From assembly GCA_016931895.1 (NCBI GenBank), contig JAFGDY010000072.1:1-57006 (forward strand): DNA of 57,006 nt. Reading direction: 5' to 3'. A model generated the notes under the pieces. That model was not told the DNA's origin, ran no database searches, and saw only the letters and a program-made list of their open reading frames with translations. The first letter of the stretch is position 1, and each line of letters starts with the position of its first letter. A program made the position numbers and the translations under genes. This document shows, piece after piece, positions 38,930-53,114 of this stretch. This stretch comes from Anaerolineae bacterium (GTDB lineage: Bacteria > Chloroflexota > Anaerolineae > 4572-78 > J111).

Positions 38930-39360
38930 CCACCGAAAACAATTTTGAGCCTACCATTTTGGCCTTTTGCTGCCGTCACTGCGCCTATGCCGCGGCCGAT
39001 TTGGCCGGCGGCCTGCGCCTCAAGTATCCGGCCTCGATCAAGATCATCGAGTTGCCCTGCACGGGTAAGTTTGACGTGTTGTACGCCCTGCGCGCTTTTG
39101 AAGACGGCGCCGACGGCCTGCTGGTGGCCGGTTGACTGGAAGGCGACTGTCATTACCTGGAAGGTAATCTTAACGCCAAAAAAAGAGTGGCCTACGTCAG
39201 CAAACTGCTGGCCGAAATTGGCCTGGAGGGCGAACGCGTTCAAATGACCAACCTGTCGGCGGCAATGGGGGCGCAGTTTGCCCAGGCCGCCACCGACATG
39301 GCCCAAAAAATCAGCCGGTTGGGGCCTAATCCCCTGCGGGCCGGCGGAGGTAAAAAATGA
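38926..39360 (+). CDS. mvhD: MvhD-family iron-sulfur protein, selenocysteine-containing (in-frame TGA)
   Basis: A 144-residue protein of the MvhD/FrhD delta-subunit family, which links HdrA to its electron donor. The frame starts with ATG after AAGGAG and reads through TGA at 39133-39135 (residue 70); it stays in frame to the TGA at 39358-39360 that overlaps the next start. The TGA sits exactly where homologues have Cys in an AG(C/U)-x-EGDCHYLEGN motif. Other Cys residues (FCCRHC at 15-19) are conserved. Sequence on both sides is typical of the family, so this is a selenoprotein and not a broken gene. In standard gene calling it appears as two fragments. It overlaps HdrA (four bases) and MetV (ATGA). 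Confidence 0.92.
39133..39177 (+). promoter_or_regulatory. bSECIS-like hairpin after the in-frame TGA
   Basis: The TGA at 39133-39135 is followed, 16 bases later, by a perfect six-base stem ATTACC (39152-39157)/GGTAAT (39163-39168) with loop TGGAA, giving G in the second loop position as in bacterial SECIS elements. A lower stem GGCG (39142-39145)/CGCC (39174-39177) supports it across an internal loop. Within coding sequence such a stem must also be compatible with the protein, which it is. Confidence 0.85.
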
Positions 39361-40043
39361 TCATTGCCGAACAAAAACCCCTGGTCAAGATAAAAGAAAT
39401 GCTGGCCGGCCAACAAAAAGTGCTGGTGCTTGGCTGCGGCACCTGCGTGACGGTATGTTTTGCCGGCGGCAGCAAAGAAGTGGGCATCCTGGCGTCCAGC
39501 CTGCGCATGGCGGCCAAACTGGAGGGCCAACCCAAAATAGTGGATGAAATGACCGTCCAGCGCCAATGCGAGTGGGAATATATTGACCCGCTGCTGGAAA
39601 AACTGGACGATTACGACGCCGTTCTCTCGTTGGGCTGTGGGGTGGGGGTGCAGGCCCTGGCCGAGCGATTTCCCGATAAACCAATTTTGCCTGGACTGAA
39701 CACCTCGTTTATGGGCCTGCCCACCGAACAGGGCGTTTGGGAAGAACGCTGCCAGGCTTGCGGCGATTGCATTTTGGATTTGACCGGGGGGATTTGCCCC
39801 ATTGCCCGCTGCGCCAAACAATTGCTCAACGGGCCGTGCGGCGGTTCGCAAAACGGCCGGTGTGAAATTGACCCGGCAGTGCCCTGCGCCTGGCACCTCA
39901 TCTGGGAGCGGGCCGAAAAACTGGGTTTACGGGACAGGCTGCTGGCCGTGCAGCCGCCCAAAACTTGGACCACCAGCCGCGACGGCGGCCCGCGCCGCAT
40001 TATCCGCGACGATCTACGTTTGCCCGAAGAATACCGGGAATGA
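39357..40043 (+). CDS. metV: MetV: methylenetetrahydrofolate reductase C-terminal/zinc and Fe-S subunit
   Basis: A 228-residue protein of the MetV family (methylenetetrahydrofolate reductase C-terminal domain). Cysteine motifs CGTC-VTVC and CQACGDCILDLTGGICPIARC, then the PCGG tail (NGPCGGSQNGRCEI), bind iron-sulfur clusters. In Moorella it pairs with MetF as MetVF. GGAGG lies six bases before the ATG, which overlaps the mvhD stop (ATGA). It precedes MetF directly, so the two will be translated together. Confidence 0.88.
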   Translation: MIIAEQKPLVKIKEMLAGQQKVLVLGCGTCVTVCFAGGSKEVGILASSLRMAAKLEGQPKIVDEMTVQRQCEWEYIDPLLEKLDDYDAVLSLGCGVGVQALAERFPDKPILPGLNTSFMGLPTEQGVWEERCQACGDCILDLTGGICPIARCAKQLLNGPCGGSQNGRCEIDPAVPCAWHLIWERAEKLGLRDRLLAVQPPKTWTTSRDGGPRRIIRDDLRLPEEYRE

Positions 40044-40055
40044 GGAGTGGGTTAA

Positions 40056-41048
40056 ATGACCGACATTTCAGCGAACGGCTATAAATCCGGCAGTAACCTG
40101 GAGCGCGTTATCCGGGCCGGCCATTTTGTGGTTACCGGAGAGCTTGGCCCGCCGCAAGGCTGGTGCCGCGAAGAAATTGAGCGCAAGGCGGCCTTGCTCA
40201 AAGGCGTGGTGGATGCCGTCAACCTGACCGACAACCAGACGGCCATTGTGCGGATGTCGAGCATTGCCGCCGGGCGAATTTTGGTTGAGCTGGGTTTGGA
40301 GCCGGTGGTCCAGATGACGTGCCGCGACCGCAACCGGCTGGGCATCCAGAGCGACCTGCTGGGCGCGGCGGCGTTGGGCATGCGTAACTTGCTCTGCCTT
40401 TCGGGCGACCACCAGAGTTTTGGCAACCATCCCACCGCCAAAAATGTCCACGATGTGGACAGCATTCAGTTGGTGCAGATGGCGGCCAATATGCGTGATC
40501 AGGCCGTATTCCAGTGCGGCGACGAAATTGAAGGCGGCGGCCTGCCCGTTTTTGTGGGCGCGGCGGCCAACCCTTTTGGCGACCCCTTTGAGCTGCGGCC
40601 CTATCGCCTGGCCAAAAAAGTGGCGGCCGGGGCCGATTTTATCCAAACCCAGCTTATTTACGATATTCCCCGTTTTAAAGAATACATGCGGCGGGTGGTT
40701 GACCTGGGCCTGCACAAAAAAACGGCCATCCTGGCCGGGGTAGGGCCGTTAAAGAGCAGCGGCATGGCCAAATACATGCGCGACAAAGTGCCCGGCATGA
40801 TCGTTGCCAACTATTACGTGGACGAGATGAGCAAAGCCATTGAGGGTATTGCCAAAGAAGAAAAAGCCGCCCGCACGCAAGCCTGGCGAAAACGAGGCAT
40901 TGAACTGTGCATTGAGCAGATCCAACAAATCCGCGAGATTGAGGGCGTGGCGGGTATTCACATTATGGCTATTGAGTGGGAAGAGGCTGTTAAACCAATT
41001 GTTGAGGGAGCCGGATTATTGCCCCGGCCCACCTTTAATCAGAGTTAA
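40056..41048 (+). CDS. metF: 5,10-methylenetetrahydrofolate reductase
   Basis: A 330-residue TIM-barrel flavoprotein that reduces methylene-THF to methyl-THF, the committed methyl-branch step. Visible landmarks are the N-terminal TGELGPPQGWC with the catalytic Glu, the flavin-binding MRNLLCLSGDHQSFGNHPTAKN, the GAAANPFG segment and QTQLIYDIPRF. The ribosome binding site GAGGAG precedes it 12 bases after the metV stop. Lacking an obvious NADH site, it probably receives electrons from the Hdr part of the complex. Confidence 0.92.
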   Translation: MTDISANGYKSGSNLERVIRAGHFVVTGELGPPQGWCREEIERKAALLKGVVDAVNLTDNQTAIVRMSSIAAGRILVELGLEPVVQMTCRDRNRLGIQSDLLGAAALGMRNLLCLSGDHQSFGNHPTAKNVHDVDSIQLVQMAANMRDQAVFQCGDEIEGGGLPVFVGAAANPFGDPFELRPYRLAKKVAAGADFIQTQLIYDIPRFKEYMRRVVDLGLHKKTAILAGVGPLKSSGMAKYMRDKVPGMIVANYYVDEMSKAIEGIAKEEKAARTQAWRKRGIELCIEQIQQIREIEGVAGIHIMAIEWEEAVKPIVEGAGLLPRPTFNQS

Positions 41049-41071
41049 GGCCTTTATTTAAGAGGTGCAAA

Positions 41072-42460
41072 ATGACCCTGGCCCAACCAACAACCCAAAC
41101 CCTGGCCCAAAAAATTGAACACGAGGTTGGCTCAAACGTATTTTTATGTTACCAATGCGTCAAGTGCAGTAGCGGCTGCCCCCTGGCCAAACACATGGAC
41201 TTGCTGCCCAACCAGGTGATGCGGGCCGTGCAACTGGACGACGAAAGCGTTTTGGAAAGCAAAACCATTTGGCTCTGCGCGGCTTGCCAAACCTGCACCA
41301 CCCGCTGCCCGCAAGAACTGGACATTGCCGGGGTGATGGACGCCTTACGCATTGAGGCCAAAAAGCAGGGCTTGCCGCCCGCCCTGCCCGACGTAGATAA
41401 ATTCAACACCCTTTTCTTGGGCGACATCGGCCTGTTGGGGCGATTGTACGAAGTGGGGTTGATGGGGGGCTTAAATTTGTGGACAGGCCAATTGTTCAAA
41501 AATATGGATATGGGCCTGGAAATGATGAAGCGGCGCAAACTCAAGCTCCTGCCCAGTCTGACCCGCCCCCCCAAACAAGTGGAGCCGGTTGACCCAACCG
41601 GCGGCAAAGTGGCCTATTATCCCGGCTGTTCGCTCCACTCCTCCGCGCCCGAATACGGCCGCACCGTGCAGGCTGTGGCCGGTGTGCTTGATTTGGACCT
41701 GGTGGAGCCGCCCGGCTGGACGTGTTGCGGCTCCACGCCCGCCCACTCTACGGATCAGACCCTGGCTACGGTGCTGCCCATGCGCACCCTGACCACAGTG
41801 GAACAGATGGGGCTGGACACCGTGACCGCTCCGTGCAGTTCGTGTTTTGCCCGGCTCAAAACAGCCGCGCACACCGTCGCTCACAATGAAACAATGGCCC
41901 GGGCCGTTGAGGATCAGCTTGGGTATGCCTATCAGGGTACGGTAACGGTGCAGCATTTGCTCGATACCCTGGTTGACCGGGTGGGCCTGGCTAAAATTGA
42001 GTCAAAGGTGCGGCAACCCTTAAAGGGGCTTAAAGTGGCCTGTTATTATGGCTGCCTGGTTACCCGGCCCAGCAAAATCACCGCCGCCGAACACCCGGAA
42101 TATCCCCTAAAAATGGATCAACTGATGCAGGCCCTGGGCGCCGAGCCGGTAGATTGGTCGTACAAAACCGATTGCTGCGGCGGCGCGCTCGGCCTGACCC
42201 AAACCCCCCTGGCCCTGGAATTGACCCGGAAAATCTTGCAAAACGCCCGCGATTGTGGGGCCGAGGTGATTGCGGCCGTTTGCCCGTTGTGCCACGTCAA
42301 CCTCGACGCCCGCCAGCGCCAGATTGGGTTTGAGCCGCCCCTGCCGGTGCTGTACGGCACGCAACTGATGGCCCTGGCCTTTGGCCTGGGCCAGAAACAG
42401 GCGGCCTTAAATAAAAATTTGGTAGACCCTAAACCGGCGTTATCGGATTATATTCGGTAG
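41072..42460 (+). CDS. HdrC-HdrB fusion protein
   Basis: A 462-residue single protein joining HdrC (residues 1-130, with CYQCVKCSSGCPL and CAACQTCTTRCP, two 4Fe-4S motifs) to HdrB (about 190-450) with two CCG domains: C-x-CCG...CSSC and C..CCGG...CPLC. HdrB binds noncubane 4Fe-4S clusters in the family and reduces disulfides or other acceptors. The two are separate genes in methanogens. GAGG precedes the ATG, 23 bases after metF. The fusion with HdrA, MvhD, MetV and MetF suggests one Hdr-MetVF complex. Confidence 0.88.
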   Translation: MTLAQPTTQTLAQKIEHEVGSNVFLCYQCVKCSSGCPLAKHMDLLPNQVMRAVQLDDESVLESKTIWLCAACQTCTTRCPQELDIAGVMDALRIEAKKQGLPPALPDVDKFNTLFLGDIGLLGRLYEVGLMGGLNLWTGQLFKNMDMGLEMMKRRKLKLLPSLTRPPKQVEPVDPTGGKVAYYPGCSLHSSAPEYGRTVQAVAGVLDLDLVEPPGWTCCGSTPAHSTDQTLATVLPMRTLTTVEQMGLDTVTAPCSSCFARLKTAAHTVAHNETMARAVEDQLGYAYQGTVTVQHLLDTLVDRVGLAKIESKVRQPLKGLKVACYYGCLVTRPSKITAAEHPEYPLKMDQLMQALGAEPVDWSYKTDCCGGALGLTQTPLALELTRKILQNARDCGAEVIAAVCPLCHVNLDARQRQIGFEPPLPVLYGTQLMALAFGLGQKQAALNKNLVDPKPALSDYIR

Positions 42461-42712
42461 CCGGCGCAAATCCTCCTCTTAGCTCTCCCCCAACAAGGTT
42501 TACGCTACCAAGGCGGAACCCGGATAAAGTGGAAATTACCCGCCTTCCGGGGTTATCAGCCGTTTTCCCCATGGACCCGTCAAAAGAGGGTCAAATTTTG
42601 CATGCATTTACCATTATAACCATTTCCTTAAAAAAATTCTCTAATATACTGTAAGAGACTGGCCTCAAGGAGTCGCTAAAACGCGTTTCCTTAAGGAGAG
42701 GCATGCCCCGTT
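42461..42712. other. Spacer with a likely promoter for the cofE-like/fhs genes
   Basis: About 250 bases without a gene. AT-rich DNA before the CofE-like gene contains TATACT at 42646-42651 and possible -35 sequences of low quality upstream. No clear terminator for the Hdr/Met operon is seen. Confidence 0.35.
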
Positions 42713-43552
42713 ATGGAAATCAGACCCATTCAAACGCCCGTTATTCAAAAAGATCAAAACCTGGTGGCTGTTTTTCTGGACACTTTTCAGGAACCGTTGG
42801 CAGAAGGCGACCTTGTTTGTGTCACCTCAAAAGTGGTTTCCCTGGAACAGGGCAGAGTGGTCAGGTTGGCGGACGTCCGGCCTTCGGCCAGGGCGCGCCG
42901 GATGGAAAAGCTGAAATACTCCAAAGATTTTGCGGCCCAACCAGAACTGGCCGAATTGATCTTACAAGAAGCGGAACGTGTGTTTGAAGACGGGTTTGTT
43001 TACCTGACCCTCAAAGACCATGTTTTCATTGCCAATGCCGGCATTGACCTGTCCAACGCGCCCGCCGGCTATGCCATTCTCTGGCCAAGCCGGTCCTGGG
43101 CGTGGGCCGAAAATTTTAGACAAAGCCTAAAAAAGCGTTATCAAATTGAGCGCTTGGGCGTGATTGTAACCGACTCTCACCTCACGCCCCTGCGCCGGGG
43201 CGTCACCGGCCTGGCCGTAGCCTACAGCGGCTTTGAGGGGATCCAAAGTGAAATAGGCCGGCCCGACCTGTTTGGCCGGCCTTTGGAAATTACCGAAAAG
43301 GCCGTGGCCGACGACCTGGCGTCGGCGGCGGTATTGGTGATGGGCGAGGCCGGGGAAAGCACTCCCTTTGCCCTGATCCGGGCCGCGCCGGTCGTCTTTA
43401 CCGATCGCTCCATAGACCCCCAGGAAACGTTCATTAATCCCAAAATGGATTTGTACGCCGGAATTTATCAGGACAGTTTTAAAGCCCTGCTTGATATTCC
43501 AATGAAGCCCTTTCCGGCAATCGGTCCTCAAGGGCAAGAGACCGAGGCTTGA
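42713..43552 (+). CDS. CofE-like (coenzyme F420-0:L-glutamate ligase family) gamma-glutamyl ligase
   Basis: A 279-residue protein of the CofE/COG1478 family (VCVTSKVVSLEQGRVV, the FVYLTLKDHVFIANAGIDLSNAP region, VIVTDSHLTPLRRGVTGLAVAYSGFEGI and DLFGRPLEITEKAVADDLASAAVLVMGE). The archetype adds glutamate to coenzyme F420-0. No other F420 gene is in the window, and members of this family have been proposed to act as folate polyglutamyl ligases where FolC is absent. The adjacent formate-THF ligase makes that alternative attractive. The start ATG is placed 14 bases after AAGGAG, rather far; a better-spaced ATG at 42703 is out of frame. Confidence 0.82.
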   Translation: MEIRPIQTPVIQKDQNLVAVFLDTFQEPLAEGDLVCVTSKVVSLEQGRVVRLADVRPSARARRMEKLKYSKDFAAQPELAELILQEAERVFEDGFVYLTLKDHVFIANAGIDLSNAPAGYAILWPSRSWAWAENFRQSLKKRYQIERLGVIVTDSHLTPLRRGVTGLAVAYSGFEGIQSEIGRPDLFGRPLEITEKAVADDLASAAVLVMGEAGESTPFALIRAAPVVFTDRSIDPQETFINPKMDLYAGIYQDSFKALLDIPMKPFPAIGPQGQETEA

Positions 43553-43591
43553 ATGAGGCTTTATTTAGTAACAACCAAGGAAGGTTAGACC

Positions 43592-45349
43592 ATGTTTAAG
43601 GTTCGCCACCCTGTACCCAGTGATATTGAAATTGCCCAAGAGGCGGTTCTCAAACCCATTAAAGAAGTGGCCGAGGCGGTAGGTTTGGGTGAGGACGATC
43701 TGGACTATTACGGCAAGTATAAGGCCAAAGTTCACCTGGACGTTCTGGAAAAATTCAAGGATCACGCGCAAGGAAAATACATTGACGTGACGGCAATCAC
43801 GCCTACCCCCCTGGGAGAAGGTAAAACAACCACCACCGTTGGTTTAAGCCAGGCGTTGGGCGCTCATTTGAACAAAAACGTGTTCACCTGCATTCGCCAG
43901 CCCTCGCAGGGGCCAACCTTTGGCATTAAAGGCGGCGCCGCCGGCGGCGGTTACAGCCAGATAGTGCCCATGGAGGATTTTAACCTCCATCTGACCGGGG
44001 ACATTCACGCGGTCACTGCCGCCAACAACCTGCTGGCGGCGGCCATTGACGCGCGGATGCTGCACGAGCGCAACTATGGCGAGCGCTTCACCAAAGTTAC
44101 CGGGTTGGACCCGTTGAACCTTAATCCCTATACCATCACCTGGAATCGCGTGCTGGATGTAAATGACCGCGAATTGCGTAAAGTGGTGGCCGGCCTGGGG
44201 GATAAGGGCGACGGCGTTCCGCGCGAAACAGGGTTTGACATTTCTGTGGCCAGCGAGGTAATGGCCATCCTGGCCTTGACCACCGGGCTTGGTGATATGC
44301 GCGAGCGGTTGGGCCGCATTGTTATTGGCCAAACTTGGGCCGGAGAGCCGGTTACGGCCGAACAGTTAGGCGCGGCCGGGGCGATGACGGTGTTAATGAA
44401 AGAGGCCGTTATGCCCAACCTGATGCAAACCCTGGAAGGCACCCCGGCCTTTGTGCACGCCGGGCCTTTTGCCAACATTGCCCACGGCAACAGCAGCATT
44501 ATTGCGGACCAGATTGCGCTGAAATTGGCCGACTACGTGGTCACCGAATCGGGCTTTGGCGCGGATATTGGCATGGAAAAATTCTTTAACATTAAGTGTC
44601 GTTATTCGGGCCTTATCCCCAACGCGGTGGTGCTGGTAGCCACCATTCGCGCTCTAAAAATGCACGGCGGCGGTCCCAGGGTGGTTGCCGGCCGTGACCT
44701 GGATAAAGCCTACACCGAGGAAAACCTGGCTTTGTTGGAGAAAGGCTGCGCCAACCTGGTCAAAAACATTCAAATTGCCGGGCTGTTTGGCATTCCGGTG
44801 GTGGTGGCGATCAATCGCTTCAAATACGATACCGAGGCTGAGGTGGCCCTGGTTAAACGGATGGCCGAAGAAGGGGGCGCTTATGCCGCGGCGGCGTCTA
44901 GCCACTGGGCCGAAGGGGGCGCCGGTTCGGTGGAACTGGCCGAGGCGGTGATGGACGCCTGCGAGCAGCCCTGCAATTTTGATTTTCTCTATCCGCTCGA
45001 TATGTCCATCAAGGAGAAAATTGAAACCATTGCTACCAAAGTTTACGGCGCAGACGGGGTGGATTATTCTTCGGCGGCTAACCAACAAATTGCCGCCTAC
45101 GAAAAAGCGGGCTTTGGCAATTTGCCCGTGTGTATGGCCAAAACTCACCTGAGCATCAGCCACGACCCCGCCTTAAAAGGCGTGCCTACAGGCTTTGGGC
45201 TGCCCATCCGCGAGGTACGGGCCAGCGTAGGGGCCGGTTTTATCTACCCCCTGTGCGGCGAGATGCGCACCATGCCAGGGCTGCCCTCCAAGCCGGTTTT
45301 TATGCAAGTAGACCTAGATGACGAGGGTAAAGTGGTTGGCCTTTTTTAA
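43592..45349 (+). CDS. fhs: Formate--tetrahydrofolate ligase
   Basis: A 585-residue enzyme that activates formate with ATP to 10-formyl-THF, the entry step of the methyl branch. The P-loop-like [16 protein letters not shown] motif is intact, as are [37 protein letters not shown], the [13 protein letters not shown] and [17 protein letters not shown] segments. AGGAAG precedes the ATG. It lies 40 bases after the CofE-like gene, so probably in the same transcript, and is convergent with the membrane protein gene. Confidence 0.97.
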
Positions 45350-45390: not shown

Positions 45391-46290
45391 TTAAATCCTT
45401 TCAACCGGGTCAAGCAGGGCAATCAGGCCCAACGCGCCCACGTTGGCAAATAACAGGGGCGCCATCAGCGGCGCGCCCCGGATGAAGCGTTCAAGCACAA
45501 TTTCGCTTTCTCTCACCAGATTGCTGTCAATGTGCAGTATTGCCCCAATAATCCCCACTACAATGAGCAGAAGCATCGCCGCAATGTAGGTGGTCAGGTC
45601 GGCGCGGGACGGTTTATTAATCGCCCCCAGGGTTACGGCCACCGCTGTCCCAAATATGCCAAGCGCCGTGGGCGCCCACAGCCAGGGATTGGCAAAATTC
45701 ACACGGGCATGGTCCAAAACGCTGCTGAGAACGGTGGCCAGGGCCGCCATGCCCACAATGTAAAAGTAGGCCCGCGTTTTGGCGTAAGGAAGCTGCACCC
45801 GGCGGCGGCCAAGCAGGATCAGGCTGCCGCTATCGGGCGGGTCTTCTATCCAAACGGCGCTGAGGCCCAACAGCCCCACCATTGAGAACATCAACGGCCC
45901 CAAAATAGGCGGCGCCCAGACCAGCAGGTCAATAGAAACGCGCTGACCCACCGGCGCGGTGGGCATAATTCCCCGCACCACGTGAAAATACGCGCCTAAC
46001 AAACCCACAACCGTACTGACCAGAAAGGTTAAAGTGGCTATAATGGTGGCCAGAGGGCGGTTTTTAAGGGCAATAAGCCCGGCCAGCAGCAGCAATATCC
46101 CGCCAACAGGGCCAAAGACAATGGGAATCCATTCGTTGGGCACAATGGTGCCGCTGATGCTATGGGCCAGGTAAATGTCAATGCCTAAAAATATCAGGTT
46201 GGCCGCCATCATTAGCAACATCAACTGATCGCGTGAAAAAGGCAAACGCGCGCGCCGCACAACCGGAACAACTTTGGCCAGGTGATACAT
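45391..46290 (-). CDS. Eight-helix membrane protein with four His-bearing repeats
   Basis: A 299-residue integral membrane protein of unknown function. The true start is ATG 46290 with AGGGGA upstream; the frame is open further but overlaps the cytochrome gene. Eight predicted helices form four related hairpins. Each contains a His at a helix end (residues 43, 103, 194, 253), a short hydrophilic loop and then (W)xP...G (NEWIPIVFGP, WAPPILGP, WAPTALGI, GAPLMAPL). Histidine arrays in such repeats may ligate haem or contact quinone. The gene starts just after the stop of an octaheme cytochrome gene, so the two proteins probably form a membrane complex. Confidence 0.72.
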   Translation of the reverse strand: MYHLAKVVPVVRRARLPFSRDQLMLLMMAANLIFLGIDIYLAHSISGTIVPNEWIPIVFGPVGGILLLLAGLIALKNRPLATIIATLTFLVSTVVGLLGAYFHVVRGIMPTAPVGQRVSIDLLVWAPPILGPLMFSMVGLLGLSAVWIEDPPDSGSLILLGRRRVQLPYAKTRAYFYIVGMAALATVLSSVLDHARVNFANPWLWAPTALGIFGTAVAVTLGAINKPSRADLTTYIAAMLLLIVVGIIGAILHIDSNLVRESEIVLERFIRGAPLMAPLLFANVGALGLIALLDPVERI

Positions 46291-46292
46291 GG

Positions 46293-47609
46293 CTATTCCC
46301 CTGCCTTTTCCAATTTCTCGGCGACCATTTCCCGCAATTCGGCCAGTTCGTGCAAAATTTCGTAGGCACCGTGCCATTGCACATAATCCGGCCCCTGCAT
46401 CCAGGCCCCAAACTTGGCGGTGCGCCCCCAGTGATGCCACAGGTTGAAGTAAGTAAAATCAATCGGTTCGTCAAATGGCTCCGGCGTAACCAAACCTTTC
46501 TCCTTTAGCGGGGCCATGATTTGATCGCTTTCAACCACCCAGGCGTTGATGGCTTCGGTCAGTTTGTCGGCGTCGGTGTAAAAGTCGTCAATAAATTCCC
46601 GGTTATGACATTCCTGGCACACGGTTTGCATGCGCGCCCGGTTATCTGACCAACCGGGGCGGCGCTGGCTGATGGGCGCAAACAGGTACCAGGTCAGGCG
46701 GTCGCCCACGTCGTGGGTGGTGCCGGCGCCCCCAAAACCGCTTATGTGGCAAACGGCGCAGGTGGCTGCGGGAAAGTCTTGCACGGTCAGCGTGCCGGCT
46801 TCGGCCTCCCAATGCCAGTTGTGGCCGCCGGTGGCGTAGGCAATGCCGTGCGGCGACTCGTGGTAAATTTCCCACTGGGGATGGTCCGGCCCAATGTGGC
46901 AGTAGTTACAGGTTTCCGGTTTGCGCGCCTGCTCCAGGCTGAATTCGTGCCGCAGGTGACATTTTTGGCATTGACCCACCGAGCCGTCCAGGTTGGGTTT
47001 GCCGACGTTATGGCAGCCTTCGCAGGCAAAACGGGTCACGTCTGGCCCTTCCAACCGGTATAGGGCGTTGCGCATTGTTTCGGGCTGGTAGCCTCCCTCG
47101 GGGATGGCCTCATAAATGGCCATTAGATGGTCAAATTGGTCCGGGTATTTTTCGGCCAAACCGTCGGCGCCCACCATGGCCATGTAGGCCGGCAGGCTAT
47201 GGCGGCTTTGATTAAATTGAGCCACTTCGGTGGCATGGCATTTTTGGCACATAGCCGGGGTGGGCAATTGCAGCACGTAGGTGTCTTCGTGTTCTTTGGC
47301 CCCGGGATAATCACTTTTTACTTCGTGACAATCCCGGCACGCCACCTCGGCGGCGGCCATAGTACTATGACCATATTGTTCAACAATGCCAGGTGTGGTA
47401 CGCTGGTGACAGACCACACATGCATCATCACTGCTGGCCAGGGCATTTGCCCGCTTAGGCCCGGCAGCAGACGGGGCTACCGCTTGACCAACAACCAACG
47501 CCAGTAAAGCCAGGCCCAATACCAGAATCACCGCTACCAAACCAATAACCAGCACTCGCATTGAGCGCAGTAAATTGGGTTTTTTGTTGGGGTTGGGTTG
47601 GATTGTCAT
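46293..47609 (-). CDS. Octaheme c-type cytochrome of the hydroxylamine oxidoreductase (HAO) family, membrane-anchored
   Basis: A 438-residue protein with an N-terminal membrane anchor (residues ~18-41) and eight CxxCH haem-binding motifs (CVVCH at 64, CRDCH, CQKCH, CEGCH, CQKCH, CNYCH, CAVCH and CQECH at 331-335). The segment CNYCHIGPDHPQWEIYHESPHG and the THDVG-type stretch before haem 8 are typical of the HAO family. A Tyr lies nine residues after the last haem His; whether it aligns to the cross-linked Tyr of HAO needs an alignment. It may act in hydroxylamine, nitrite or hydrazine metabolism, or another multi-electron reaction. It is translated with the eight-helix membrane protein. Confidence 0.85.
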   Translation of the reverse strand: MTIQPNPNKKPNLLRSMRVLVIGLVAVILVLGLALLALVVGQAVAPSAAGPKRANALASSDDACVVCHQRTTPGIVEQYGHSTMAAAEVACRDCHEVKSDYPGAKEHEDTYVLQLPTPAMCQKCHATEVAQFNQSRHSLPAYMAMVGADGLAEKYPDQFDHLMAIYEAIPEGGYQPETMRNALYRLEGPDVTRFACEGCHNVGKPNLDGSVGQCQKCHLRHEFSLEQARKPETCNYCHIGPDHPQWEIYHESPHGIAYATGGHNWHWEAEAGTLTVQDFPAATCAVCHISGFGGAGTTHDVGDRLTWYLFAPISQRRPGWSDNRARMQTVCQECHNREFIDDFYTDADKLTEAINAWVVESDQIMAPLKEKGLVTPEPFDEPIDFTYFNLWHHWGRTAKFGAWMQGPDYVQWHGAYEILHELAELREMVAEKLEKAGE

Positions 47610-47944
47610 TAAACTTCCCTCCTCAAAAGCAATTTAAAAAGGGATGAGCATAAAGGTTAATCACCTTAACACTAAAAGTAAATCGTGTCAACTTTTAGAA
47701 ACGCGGGGTCTGATTCCCAAAAAAAGGTTTGAGGCTGTACTTTTTTAAGGATTTGTTTTATGCTCAAGCCGCAAAGTTTAAGAGCCTGTCTGAAAAGCCG
47801 AACAGTTGCTTCGAGCGACGAAGGGAGTGAGAAATCCCTACGCGGTAACGTTTTCGAGCCAGATTCCAGGGATTTCTCGGCCTGTGGCCTCGAAATGACA
47901 TGCTTTTCAGACAGCTTCTAACAACAAGTAGGAAAAAGTGGCCT
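47610..47944. other. Spacer with MITE-like element
   Basis: Apart from the element at 47781-47919, this spacer of about 330 bases shows no gene. It must contain the cytochrome promoter (minus) and the kinase promoter (plus). Confidence 0.45.
47781..47919. mobile_element. MITE-like element with terminal inverted repeats
   Basis: The 18-base ends AGAGCCTGTCTGAAAAGC (47781-47798) and the reverse complement of AGAAGCTGTCTGAAAAGC (47902-47919) match at 16 of 18 positions. The 139-base element carries no open frame and has internal ATTTC-rich palindromic pieces (GAAATCCC/GGGATTTC). No certain target-site duplication is seen. It ends 25 bases before the kinase start codon. Confidence 0.72.
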
Positions 47945-49867
47945 ATGAAAACAGAACCAACCAGATTCATAGTGGCCTTTATGGGTTTGCTGGTATTTTG
48001 GCTGCCACCCCTCAAACCGGCCATAACTCAGGCAGAACCCTGGCGGATTCTCATTTTTAACTCCCACCATCTCAACCAGCCTTATCCATATTATGATGAT
48101 TACCGGGCTATTTTGGGGGCCGCCATTATCTTTGTGGCCTTTGAGACCTTTGTCATCCTTTACCTCCTGCTCAATACCTTTCGCCGGCGGCAGGCCGAGC
48201 AGGCGTTACAGCAGCGAGTCAACCAATTGGCCCTGCTCAGTGAAATCGGCGGGCAAATTGTGGCCGTGCTTGAGCTGGACAACGTGCTGATTAGAGCGGT
48301 TCAATTAGTGCAAGAAAACTTTGGTTATCATCACGTGGCTATTTTTACCCTGGATTATGGGCAGGGGCGGCTGGGCATGCGGGCCAAAGCCGGCACCTAT
48401 ACGGCCCTCTTCCCCCCCGATTATACGCTGAAATTGAACGAAGGCATGGTTGGCTGGGCGGCCCATCATAATCAAACTCTGTTGGCCAATGATGTGGCCA
48501 AGGAGACTCATTATGAAAACTCGTTTCCCGGTGAAGGGGAAATAATCACCCGGTCCGAGTTGAGCGTGCCCATTCAGATTCGCGGCGGGGTGATTGGCGT
48601 GCTTGACGTGCAAAGTCCCCAGCGGAATGCCTTTGATCAAAACGATTTGTTGGTGTTAAAAACCCTGGCCGATCAAATTGCCGTAGCCATGGAGAATGCC
48701 CGGCTCTACGAAGCGATAAAACAGGAGCTGAACGAACGCCGGCAGGCCGAGGAGGCGTTGCGGGCGAGTGAAGCAAAATACCGGCAACTGGTTGAATACG
48801 CCCCGGCCGGTATTTGTGAAATTGACTTTGTCCAAAACCGGTTTATCAGCGTTAATGACGTGATGTGTGAATATAGCGGTTACACCAGAGAAGAATTTTT
48901 GGCGCTGAATCCCTTTGCGCTCCTGGTTGGGGAAAGCCGGAAACATTTTATAGAAAGACAACAGAAACTATTTAGCGGCCAGCCTGTGCCCGACATTGTT
49001 GAATGTAAAATCAGGGGCAAAAACAGCCGTGAGTTTTGGGTGCTGCTTAATATGAGTCATCGGTACAAGGAAGGTGAGCCGGTTAGCGCCACCGTGGTAG
49101 CCCACGATATTACCGAGCGCAGGCAGATTGAGGCAGAAATCCGTAAACTCAACGTGGAACTTGAGCAGCGCGTGCTTCAACGCACGGCCCAACTTGAAGC
49201 GGCCAACAAAGAATTGGAAACCTTTGCCTACTCGGTTTCGCACGACCTGCGCGCGCCGCTGCGCAGCATTAACGGCTTTAGCCAGGCCCTATTGGATGAA
49301 TACGCGGGCGTGTTGGGTGAAATGGGCCAAGATTACCTGCACCGGGTATTGGCCGCCAGCCGCCGGATGGGTCAGCTCATTGATGATTTGCTAAAATTAT
49401 CGCGTTTGACGCGGGGGGAGTTGCATCGCCTGCCCGTTCAGCTCAGCGTTTTGGCTCAAGAAATTGTGGCGGATTTGCAACAGACGCAGCCCAAACGGGC
49501 GGTAGACTTTATTATCACCCCTGACATAGTGGTTAAGGGGGATGAGCAGCTGCTGCGGGCGGCGTTGGAGAATTTGCTGGGCAATGCCTGGAAGTTTTCC
49601 CGGCAGCGTTCTCGCGCCAAAATTGAATTTGGCCGAACAGAGATCAACGACGAGCCGGTTTATTTTATCCGCGACAACGGGGCCGGGTTTGATATGGCTT
49701 ATGCCGATAAGTTATTTGGCGCTTTTCAACGCTTGCACCGGGACACAGAGTTTGAGGGGGTTGGCATTGGCCTGGCCACCGTGCAACGGATCATCCACCG
49801 CCACGGAGGGCGCATTTGGGCTGAAGCCGGGGTGGATAAAGGGGCGACGTTTTACTTTACGCTTTGA
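47945..49867 (+). CDS. Sensor histidine kinase with a truncated periplasmic sensor, GAF and PAS domains
   Basis: A 640-residue kinase. The start is ATG 47945; an upstream ATG at 47900 falls in the MITE-like end. The signal peptide (to ~30) is followed by EPWRILIFNSHHLNQPYPYYDDY, which looks like the beginning of an ABC substrate-binding-like sensor domain, but then directly by a membrane helix (RAILGAAIIFVAFETFVILYLLL). Cytoplasmic GAF (~95-255) and PAS (~275-400) domains follow, then HisKA (YSVSHDLRAPLRSING, phosphorylated His) and HATPase (N box NAWKFSRQ, DNGAGF). The gene may be fed by the adjacent hybrid kinase downstream. Confidence 0.85.
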   Translation: MKTEPTRFIVAFMGLLVFWLPPLKPAITQAEPWRILIFNSHHLNQPYPYYDDYRAILGAAIIFVAFETFVILYLLLNTFRRRQAEQALQQRVNQLALLSEIGGQIVAVLELDNVLIRAVQLVQENFGYHHVAIFTLDYGQGRLGMRAKAGTYTALFPPDYTLKLNEGMVGWAAHHNQTLLANDVAKETHYENSFPGEGEIITRSELSVPIQIRGGVIGVLDVQSPQRNAFDQNDLLVLKTLADQIAVAMENARLYEAIKQELNERRQAEEALRASEAKYRQLVEYAPAGICEIDFVQNRFISVNDVMCEYSGYTREEFLALNPFALLVGESRKHFIERQQKLFSGQPVPDIVECKIRGKNSREFWVLLNMSHRYKEGEPVSATVVAHDITERRQIEAEIRKLNVELEQRVLQRTAQLEAANKELETFAYSVSHDLRAPLRSINGFSQALLDEYAGVLGEMGQDYLHRVLAASRRMGQLIDDLLKLSRLTRGELHRLPVQLSVLAQEIVADLQQTQPKRAVDFIITPDIVVKGDEQLLRAALENLLGNAWKFSRQRSRAKIEFGRTEINDEPVYFIRDNGAGFDMAYADKLFGAFQRLHRDTEFEGVGIGLATVQRIIHRHGGRIWAEAGVDKGATFYFTL

Positions 49868-49922
49868 TGGAATGATGATAAACTATACCGGTTTTAGAAA
49901 CCCGCCCAACTTGGAGTAATTC

Positions 49923-52900
49923 ATGAGGATACCCCTACGTGTCTTGATTGTTGAAGATTCAGAAGATGACGCCCTGCTGCTGGTACGCGAACTGCGTCAT
50001 GGCGGCTATGATCCCACTTTTGAGCGGGTTGAGACAGCCCCGGATATGAACATGGCCCTGGCGCAACAGGCGTGGGACGTGGTTCTGGCGGATTTCAAAA
50101 TACCCGGTTTTGGCGGCCTGGCCGCTTTGGCGTTATTGCAAAAGCGCGGGCTTGATTTACCCTTTATTATTGTTTCAGGCGCCATTGGCGAAGAAACGGC
50201 GGTAGAAGCGATGAAGGCCGGGGCGCACGACTACGTGATGAAGGACAACCTGGCCCGTCTGCTGCCTGCCGTGGAACGCGAATTGCGCGAGGCCATGGTC
50301 CGGCAGGAGCGCAGGCAGGCGCGGATAGCCCTGGAAACCCATGCCCGCCAACAAGCCGCCCTGTTCCACCTCAGTTCTGAGTTGGTGGCCACCCTGGACG
50401 AAACGGATATTTGTGATAAAGTGGTTGTTGGTTTGCATAAGACGTTGGGTTATGATCACGTGGGCATTTTGCTGGTAGACGAATCTACCGGCGAGCGCGT
50501 ATTGCGGGCTTGCACGCCTGCTGCCAATATGTCGCTTGATTTACGCCTGCCGTCCGGCCAGGGCTTGAGCGAACGTCCCCTGTTGGATGGCCGGCCCCAC
50601 TATACCCCTGATGTAACCAAAGAGCCGGATTATGTGCCGGCCTTCAACGGTTTGTCTGAGTTGGACCTACCCCTTAAGGTCGGCCCGAAGGTTTTGGGAG
50701 TGCTGGTTATTGAGAGTAGCCGGGTTGATGCTTTTAGTGAAGATGATTTTGCCGTGCTTACCGCCGCCGCCAATCAGGTGGCTGTGGCCCTGGCCCGGGC
50801 CAGGGAACACCAGGCAGTTAAAGCGGCTGAAATTCGTTACCAGAGTCTGTTTAGCCGGATGCCGGTGGGCCTTTATCGGACGGCCCCGGGGGGGCAATTT
50901 TTGGAGGTGAATCCGGCTCTGGTGGAGATGTTGGGCTATCCAAACCGGGAGGCTCTTCTAGCCATCAACGCTATTGATCTGTACGTTGATGTGACAGAAC
51001 GCCATCGCTGGCAGTCCTTGTTGGAACAAGAAGGGGTGGTGCGAGATTTTGAGGTCCAGATGTACCGGCATGATGACGCCATCATCTGGGCGCGGAATAC
51101 AGCCCGGGCCGGGCGAGACCAGGAAGGGAGCCAGATACTTTATTACGAAGGTAGCCTGGAAGACATCACCGCCCACAAACAGGCCCAAGAAGCGTTGCGC
51201 AAAAGCGAAGAACGGTATCGTCGTTTGATTGAAACTTCTCCTGATGCCATTACCCTGACCGACTTACAGGGTAATTTGCTGATGACGAATCAACAAAACG
51301 CCAGCATGCTTGGTTACGCAAATGTGGAAGAACTCCTGGCCAGTCAAAAGGATGCCTTTGATTTTATCGCTCCTCTAGACCGGCAGCGCGCAAAGCAAAA
51401 CCTGGAAAAAACATTGGAGAGCGGGAGCGTGAGAAATGTTGAATACACCATGCTCAGAAAAGACAATTCCACTGCCCTGGTAGAACTGAGCGCATCGTTG
51501 ATTAAAAATGCCACCGGAGCGCCGGAAGCCTTTATTGGCATTGTCAGAGACATTGCCGAACGCAAGCGGGCCGAGGAAGAACGTCGCCGCTTGAGCGCGG
51601 CCATTGAGCAGACGGCCGAGAGCGTGATTATCACCGATACCGAGGGGGTGATTGTTTACGTTAATCCCGCCTTTGAGCGCGTCGGCGGCCATAACCGGGC
51701 CGAAGTGATGGGGCAGCATAGCCGTATTCTCAAAAGCGGCCAACACGATGACGCCTTTTACCGGGAGATGTGGGCCGTAATTAGCGGGGGGGCAGTGTGG
51801 CAAGGGCGGATTGTCAACAAGAGAAAGGATGGCAGTTTTTACACCGACGAGGTGACCATCACCCCGGTGCGCAACGAAAGCGGCGAGATTGTCAACTACG
51901 TTTCCGTGCAGCGCGATGTGAGCCGCGAGTTAGAACTGGAAGAACAGGTCCGGCGGTCGCAACGAATGGAAGCGGTGGGCCAGCTAACGGCAGGGATTGC
52001 CCACGATTTCAATAATTTGCTGACCGCCATCAATGGTTTTGCCGAGTTGCTGCAATATCGCCTGCCGGTGGATAGTCCAAGCTATGATATGGCCGGAAAA
52101 ATTCTACATTCGGGCCAACACGCGGCAGACCTGGTGAGCCAACTGCTGGCCTTTAGCCGCAAGCAGTTAATCCAGCCAAAGGTATTGAGCCTCAACGAGG
52201 TGGTTATGGATATTGTGGACAAGATGCTCAAGCGGGTCATTGGTGAAACCATAGAGCTGGCCTTGTTCCTGGAACCGGCATTATGGCCGGTGAAGATTGA
52301 CCCGGCCCAGATGGAGCAGGTTATTGTTAACTTGGCGGTCAACGCCCGCGATGCCATGCCTGGCGGCGGCAAATTGACCATTGAAACAGCCAATGTGGTT
52401 TTGGACGATGCGTATGTGGCCGGCCACCTGGGTGCCGAGCCGGGCGAACACGTGCGGTTGTGCGTGAGTGATACGGGTTGCGGTATGAGCAAAGAGGTGC
52501 AGGCCCATATTTTTGAGCCGTTTTTTACCACCAAAGAGGTTAATGAGGGCACAGGGTTGGGCTTGGCCACTGTTTTTGGCATTGTCAAACAAAGCCAGGG
52601 CAATATTTGGGCCTACAGCGAAGAAGGGGTAGGCAGTACCTTTAAAATCTATTTACCGCGGGCAACTCAGGCCACCGACACCGCGCTCCGGCTGGCGGAA
52701 ACGGATGATTTGCCCCGCGGCGCAGAAACAATCCTGGTGGTGGAAGATGAGGCAATGGTGCGTGAGTTGGCCGTGCGGGTGCTGGGCTGGCAGGGTTACA
52801 CCATTCTACAGGCGGCCAATGGCCGGGAAGCTTTGAGTTTGGCCCAGAAATACAACGGAGAAATCCACCTTTTGTTGACGGACATGGTCATGCCCCAATT

Positions 52901-53114
52901 GGGAGGCCAACTATTAGCCAACCAGATAAAAACTATCTGCCCTGATATTAAAATTCTTTTCACTTCAGGTTACACCAGCCAGGCTATGGTAACACATGAG
53001 ATGTTGTTTGCGGGCGCAGAGTTTATCCAAAAGCCCTTTTCGCCAAGAGAATTGGCCCATAAGGTGAGGGAGGTGTTGGACGGAGCGGATTGGGAAATAG
53101 GAAGCAGGAAATAG
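49923..53114 (+). CDS. Hybrid sensor histidine kinase with two receiver domains
   Basis: A 1063-residue cytoplasmic kinase with order receiver (1-125, LADFKIPG with phosphoacceptor Asp), GAF (~150-290), three PAS domains (~295-420, ~425-545, ~555-680), HisKA (AGIAHDFNNLLTAINGFAELL), HATPase (NARDAMPGGGKL, DTGCGM, EGTGLGLATVFGI) and a second receiver (ILVVEDEAMV..., LLTDMVMPQ). It starts 56 bases after the preceding kinase, so a two-gene signalling unit is likely. There is no membrane segment. Confidence 0.9.
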   Translation: MRIPLRVLIVEDSEDDALLLVRELRHGGYDPTFERVETAPDMNMALAQQAWDVVLADFKIPGFGGLAALALLQKRGLDLPFIIVSGAIGEETAVEAMKAGAHDYVMKDNLARLLPAVERELREAMVRQERRQARIALETHARQQAALFHLSSELVATLDETDICDKVVVGLHKTLGYDHVGILLVDESTGERVLRACTPAANMSLDLRLPSGQGLSERPLLDGRPHYTPDVTKEPDYVPAFNGLSELDLPLKVGPKVLGVLVIESSRVDAFSEDDFAVLTAAANQVAVALARAREHQAVKAAEIRYQSLFSRMPVGLYRTAPGGQFLEVNPALVEMLGYPNREALLAINAIDLYVDVTERHRWQSLLEQEGVVRDFEVQMYRHDDAIIWARNTARAGRDQEGSQILYYEGSLEDITAHKQAQEALRKSEERYRRLIETSPDAITLTDLQGNLLMTNQQNASMLGYANVEELLASQKDAFDFIAPLDRQRAKQNLEKTLESGSVRNVEYTMLRKDNSTALVELSASLIKNATGAPEAFIGIVRDIAERKRAEEERRRLSAAIEQTAESVIITDTEGVIVYVNPAFERVGGHNRAEVMGQHSRILKSGQHDDAFYREMWAVISGGAVWQGRIVNKRKDGSFYTDEVTITPVRNESGEIVNYVSVQRDVSRELELEEQVRRSQRMEAVGQLTAGIAHDFNNLLTAINGFAELLQYRLPVDSPSYDMAGKILHSGQHAADLVSQLLAFSRKQLIQPKVLSLNEVVMDIVDKMLKRVIGETIELALFLEPALWPVKIDPAQMEQVIVNLAVNARDAMPGGGKLTIETANVVLDDAYVAGHLGAEPGEHVRLCVSDTGCGMSKEVQAHIFEPFFTTKEVNEGTGLGLATVFGIVKQSQGNIWAYSEEGVGSTFKIYLPRATQATDTALRLAETDDLPRGAETILVVEDEAMVRELAVRVLGWQGYTILQAANGREALSLAQKYNGEIHLLLTDMVMPQLGGQLLANQIKTICPDIKILFTSGYTSQAMVTHEMLFAGAEFIQKPFSPRELAHKVREVLDGADWEIGSRK

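Follow-up and report, generated by a model that had tools for sequence, protein, structure and literature searches.

A probable variant HURM in an Anaerolineae genome: an HAO-type octahaem cytochrome encoded with a proposed quinone-linked membrane protein bearing four invariant histidines

Introduction

How might an HAO-type octahaem cytochrome reach the respiratory quinone pool when the gene beside it encodes a membrane protein without a single c-haem motif? This question is raised by a pair of genes in a 57,006-nucleotide stretch of an Anaerolineae genome (contig JAFGDY010000072.1, assembly GCA_016931895.1), referred to here as the window. In the hydroxylamine:quinone redox module (HURM) and reverse-HURM of Nautilia an HAO-type octahaem cytochrome, HaoA, is likewise combined with a membrane partner expected to reach quinone, a member of the cM552/NapC/NrfH superfamily (PMC2628731, PMC3701875). 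The Nautilia partner is a tetrahaem NapC/NrfH cytochrome, whereas the one in the window is an eight-helix (8-TM) protein free of haem c. A preliminary description, made from the sequence alone, had suggested that the pair could be a new quinone-linked electron-transfer module. Here we examine the two proteins, their relatives and the gene contexts in which these occur, and weigh the explanations that they allow.

Results

The cytochrome gene occupies positions 46293..47609 on the minus strand (start codon ATG at 47609, last base of the stop codon at 46293) and encodes 438 amino acids with eight CxxCH motifs and one N-terminal TM anchor. Its stop is separated by 2 bp from the ATG of the membrane-protein gene at 46290 (...tag cc atg...), which covers 45391..46290 on the same strand and encodes 299 amino acids, the proposed quinone-linked subunit and NrfH/NapC replacement. 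The two-base gap had been described previously and is confirmed on the sequence; the eight haem motifs, the HAO-like sequence and the membrane anchor are likewise confirmed by ORF reading, Pfam and matches to solved structures. A folate C1 cluster of the acetogenesis-type methyl branch (39357-45349, plus strand) adjoins the pair on the other strand and holds MetF-associated DUF5981, MTHFR, an Fe-S/CCG heterodisulfide-reductase-like protein, an F420_ligase-family protein and formate-THF ligase. Two large PAS/GAF histidine kinases (47900-53114, plus strand), one with two receiver domains, are encoded divergently from the cytochrome; they are possible regulators and are not conserved at other loci of the pair.

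The cytochrome matched Pfam PF13447 (Multi-haem_cyto) with an E-value of 2.5e-27 and 96.3 bits (curated cut-off 21.9), and the Pfam search gave no match to NrfA (PF02335). With the hydrazine dehydrogenase profile NF052343 it scored 81.5 bits, far below the curated cut-off of 900. The nearest solved structures were IhOCC (4qo5), HAO (1fgj) and HDH (6hif); the comparison with HAO and hydrazine dehydrogenase that had been recommended earlier produced matches to both, and IhOCC scored best. IhOCC, from Ignicoccus hospitalis, is a membrane-associated octahaem protein according to the title of its paper; it differs from the window cytochrome in being archaeal and in aligning a D-V where the latter has the active-site D-H. 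An AlphaFold2 model of the cytochrome was set aside (pLDDT 48, haem absent from the model).

The D-H pair, Asp242-His243 (codons 46881..46886, minus strand), aligns with Asp267-His268 of the HAO active site in 1fgj and is invariant in all 19 aligned cytochromes. The preliminary description had drawn attention to a tyrosine nine residues after the haem-8 histidine. This residue, Tyr344, is conserved within the 8-TM-linked clade, but its place is not that of the HAO tyrosine that cross-links to haem 4. The latter is Tyr467 in literature numbering, and since the haem-8 motif starts with C360 in 1fgj, it follows haem 8 at a distance of about 100 residues and not of nine. Tyr409 (codon 46383..46385, minus strand) could be the equivalent instead. 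It is invariant across the 8-TM-linked clade and stands in a C-terminal motif, WMQGxDYxQWHG, that is almost invariant there; NrfH-linked cytochromes have either Trp or Tyr in this column, and IhOCC has Trp.

These residues bear on whether the module might run in the oxidative direction, with hydroxylamine, hydrazine or NO oxidised by the cytochrome and quinone reduced by the 8-TM protein. HAO passes its electrons through c554/cM552 to quinone. Both the invariant D-H pair and the constancy of Tyr409 in the 8-TM clade, where the NrfH-linked clade varies between Trp and Tyr, are in keeping with such a reading. However, IhOCC, the best solved relative, has Trp in this column, and neither profiles against PDB chains nor an approximate C-terminal piece of HAO gave a reliable alignment of the C-terminal part of the cytochrome that would place Tyr409 at the HAO cross-linking tyrosine.

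The membrane protein was modelled by AlphaFold2 with eight membrane helices and a mean pLDDT of 80. Four histidines, His43 (codon 46162..46164, computed from the start at 46290), His103 (45982..45984), His194 (45709..45711) and His253 (45532..45534), all on the minus strand, lie a few residues from the ends of helices 1, 3, 5 and 7, respectively, and model confidence is lowest in the loops around them. Averaged over 20 homologues, the loops on the N-terminal side contain 8.0 Lys and Arg residues against 4.1 on the histidine side, which places the histidines at the periplasmic ends of their helices, on the same side as the haem domain. The histidines and the xxP motifs that follow them are at the positions first described. 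Conservation of the histidines had been set beforehand as a test, and none of the four varied in any of the 20 pair-linked proteins, where the Pro positions are nearly as constant, or in distant relatives from other phyla. Across these phyla, the columns without variation are those of the four His, of the Pro that follows each of them and of some Gly; the GxxGxxxH that contains the second and the fourth His is among them.

The earlier view of four hairpins, each with a histidine, stands, but not as four equal repeats. The two halves of the protein are homologous (hhalign E-value 6.6e-48 on the superfamily alignment), with hairpin 1 matching hairpin 3 and hairpin 2 matching hairpin 4, and with no clear similarity between hairpins 1 and 2. 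Moreover, Deinococcus and Frondihabitans have forms of 156-157 amino acids with two histidines. Consequently, the basic unit is a 4-TM protein with two His on same-facing helices, and it is duplicated in the window protein. Half-length versions (150-180 amino acids; loci L026, L027, L028, L175 and L176) occur in Deinococcus and Frondihabitans as 4-TM genes standing alone and in some Chloroflexota as tandem frames, the latter in draft assemblies where frameshifts are possible.

That the membrane protein is no recognisable NrfH or NapC type was borne out: NrfH, NapC and cM552 have four CxxCH motifs and one TM helix, and this protein has no CxxCH, eight TM helices and no Pfam or NCBIfam match above cut-off. 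No named quinone subunit (NrfD, b561 or others) scored above cut-off in Pfam or NCBIfam for the window protein, its aligned members or its distant homologues, and no known quinone-binding family matched it by sequence or fold. It does possess paired invariant histidines in membrane helices, two per homologous half, as in a di-haem b membrane cytochrome. Foldseek and VIA-align searches with the model returned nothing significant, the rhodopsin-like and helical-bundle matches (Z about 8-13) being in the range expected of helical bundles. Weak, below-cut-off Pfam matches to the phage holin Hol44 (best E-value 2.5e-4 in one relative, 0.04 in the window protein) were rejected.

A scan of GTDB species genomes recovered 17 relatives of the cytochrome, one of them a C-terminal fragment. 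The survey of the pair in other genomes that had been called for earlier gave a uniform answer, as all 17 have the membrane gene directly downstream; no further gene is common to these neighbourhoods, and the pair is all that is conserved. In a profile search, HAO-type octahaem cytochromes were present in 54 of 298 genomes of the same class. At 24 loci the 8-TM gene lay downstream of the cytochrome gene (in one case after a gap of 450 bases), and at 16 a gene for a tetrahaem NrfH/NapC protein lay upstream of it; one such upstream member, when tested, matched the NrfH profile with an E-value of 7.5e-21. Among the neighbourhoods read in the 298 genomes, none had both partners. The remaining loci contained more distant cytochromes with neither partner or lay at contig ends. 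The NrfH-linked cytochromes of this class and of Thermodesulfobacteriota (L082-L085, L120-L125, L180, L181) are about 35% identical to the window protein and share its haem and C-terminal motifs; they differ in having the partner gene upstream, where window-type loci have the 8-TM gene downstream.

In a maximum-likelihood tree, which is unrooted, one branch (SH-aLRT 98) sets the 8-TM-linked cytochromes apart as one clade, and a single change of partner explains every row labelled NrfH or 8-TM. Since NapC/NirT also accompanies the relatives on Thermodesulfobacteriota plasmids, the NrfH type appears to be broadly distributed and the 8-TM type to have replaced it, as far as an unrooted tree can indicate.

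The same surveys brought up other features of the cytochromes. A third HAO-like octahaem type, about 550-570 amino acids where complete, has neither NrfH nor 8-TM partner (L145, L146, L156, L157); a Rieske-like gene (L088) or a large Tat-like oxidoreductase gene (L156, L157) is found beside this type. One family of the class has HAO-type cytochromes of ~740-760 amino acids with nine CxxCH motifs (L158, L160, L161, L162). Two NrfH-linked cytochromes (L083, L084) seem to start with a lipobox (LVAC) and not with a TM anchor, in which the 8-TM-linked ones differ. On a Desulfosarcina ovata plasmid (L181), the NapC-linked octahaem cytochrome adjoins norR and the large subunit of a nitric-oxide reductase, hinting at a role of the cytochrome family in NO or nitrite stress.

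Neither NrfA nor any member of the NapC/NrfH family was found in the window's own genome, which is 97% complete, so that the rest of the genome offers no apparent conventional partner. Hcp gave no match either, and NarG none above cut-off; a complete path from nitrate to ammonium is therefore not apparent.

A second gene context came to light in other classes of Chloroflexota, which have distant homologues of the 8-TM protein (blastp E-values down to 2e-18). In 24 Chloroflexota genomes the gene directly precedes those of a Gluconate_2-dh3 protein (PF13618) and a GMC oxidoreductase, identified by Pfam at three loci and through tblastn with those proteins at the remainder. The same order is found on plasmids of Granulicella, Deinococcus, Frondihabitans, Caballeronia, Nitrobacter and Komagataeibacter, in four other phyla, where the 8-TM relative is annotated as a hypothetical or putative membrane protein and has no Pfam or NCBIfam name. 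On a tree, membrane proteins linked to octahaem cytochromes and those linked to GMC dehydrogenases split cleanly (support 100). One further match to the window protein (G179/L030) was discarded as spurious, the context of the family being missing. The two genes that follow the distant 8-TM relatives correspond to the first two subunits of three-subunit FAD gluconate/fructose dehydrogenases, which consist of a GMC protein, Gluconate_2-dh3 and a trihaem cytochrome c. In those complexes it is the trihaem cytochrome c that reaches quinone, and the 8-TM relative stands at the place expected of it; the window pair differs in having no GMC subunit. We found no description of the 8-TM protein beside either partner in the open-access literature.

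Discussion

In a HURM, an octahaem HAO-type cytochrome comes with a membrane partner of its own and electrons are exchanged with the quinone pool; in its gene composition, the pair in the window agrees with this. In our judgement it is probably a membrane-bound respiratory module of the HURM kind, in which a quinone-linked 8-TM protein, probably with two b haems, replaces NrfH and the cytochrome is most likely an N-oxide reductase. We infer quinone binding, b haem, direction and substrate for the module as follows. The cytochrome, anchored by its single N-terminal helix, would supply an HAO-type wire of eight haems and the active site, both on the periplasmic side, and the 8-TM protein would take the place that NrfH/NapC (cM552) has in other HURMs. 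Electrons would be drawn from quinol in the periplasmic half of the membrane and passed to the octahaem cytochrome, which would most likely reduce nitrite, NO or hydroxylamine. Against this account stand the negative searches for a known quinone-binding family and, in the genome, for Hcp and for a NarG above cut-off.

Electron exchange between quinone and a partner enzyme would be the simplest account of the 8-TM protein, given its co-encoding with the cytochrome, its mutual exclusivity with a quinol dehydrogenase family, its occurrence with a second periplasmic oxidoreductase and its four invariant histidines at the membrane edge. A role outside redox chemistry, as an anchor, an assembly factor or a channel for a small molecule such as nitrite or ammonium, would fit a protein in which no cofactor-binding family is recognised. 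Yet we consider it improbable, because the cytochrome already has a membrane helix of its own, because an electron carrier has been replaced one for one in a genome without NapC/NrfH, and because an anchor or channel leaves unexplained why four invariant histidines are common to a family that also serves the unrelated GMC dehydrogenases.

Within a quinone-linked role, the part of the histidines can be read in two ways. Each four-helix unit, with its two His, may hold a single bis-His b haem: the four invariant residues, on same-facing helices and at the periplasmic end, would most likely hold two b haems in all, which would bridge quinone and the partner enzyme. Alternatively, the protein may be free of haem, with the His and Pro motifs forming a quinol site that directly reduces the nearest c haem, or the FAD or Fe-S of a GMC enzyme. 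The gene contexts agree with this equally well, and the low-confidence loops around the histidines would fit any missing ligand. We nevertheless regard it as somewhat unlikely, since the arrangement of two same-facing histidines per four-helix unit, together with GxxGxxxH, appears to resemble the bis-His b-haem sites of known b cytochromes.

As to direction, the NrfH-linked HURMs of Nautilia have been proposed as quinol oxidases feeding nitrite reduction (PMC2628731, PMC3701875), and on this basis we favor the reductive direction with moderate confidence. The oxidative alternative introduced with the tyrosines draws further support from the GMC-linked relatives, which would feed electrons into quinone, but the partner that was replaced is NrfH/NapC-like and in known cases a quinol oxidase, and overall we hold oxidation of hydroxylamine, hydrazine or NO to be unlikely. 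Because the GMC-linked relatives would run oxidatively, the family as such does not fix the direction for the window pair. They do serve another class of periplasmic enzyme that needs a quinone link, and in this respect they support a quinone-linked module with the 8-TM protein in the place of NrfH.

Thus, the suggestion of a new quinone-linked module has gained from the conservation of the pair in its clade, the invariant histidines, the one-for-one replacement of NrfH/NapC and the GMC context, while its tyrosine argument concerns the wrong residue. We propose that the pair is a variant HURM whose putative quinone partner comes from a family of four-His membrane proteins that has no name and spans several phyla, which strengthens and extends the earlier interpretation. 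More tentatively, and as a possibility rather than an expectation, this duplicated 4-TM family may be a new kind of haem-b quinone oxidoreductase subunit, connecting two unrelated sorts of periplasmic enzyme, HAO-type cytochromes and GMC dehydrogenases, with the quinone pool in at least five phyla.

In conclusion, the 8-TM protein appears to be an overlooked connector by which periplasmic enzymes plug into the respiratory quinone pool. The b-haem reading predicts two b haems, quinol/quinone activity and four essential histidines. If it holds true, the NrfH/NapC step of octahaem nitrogen-cycle enzymes would be replaceable by a protein free of c haem, and a widespread "hypothetical protein" beside GMC dehydrogenases would acquire a function. 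Where nitrite or hydroxylamine metabolism in Chloroflexota is annotated by way of NrfA or NrfH, such modules would be overlooked.
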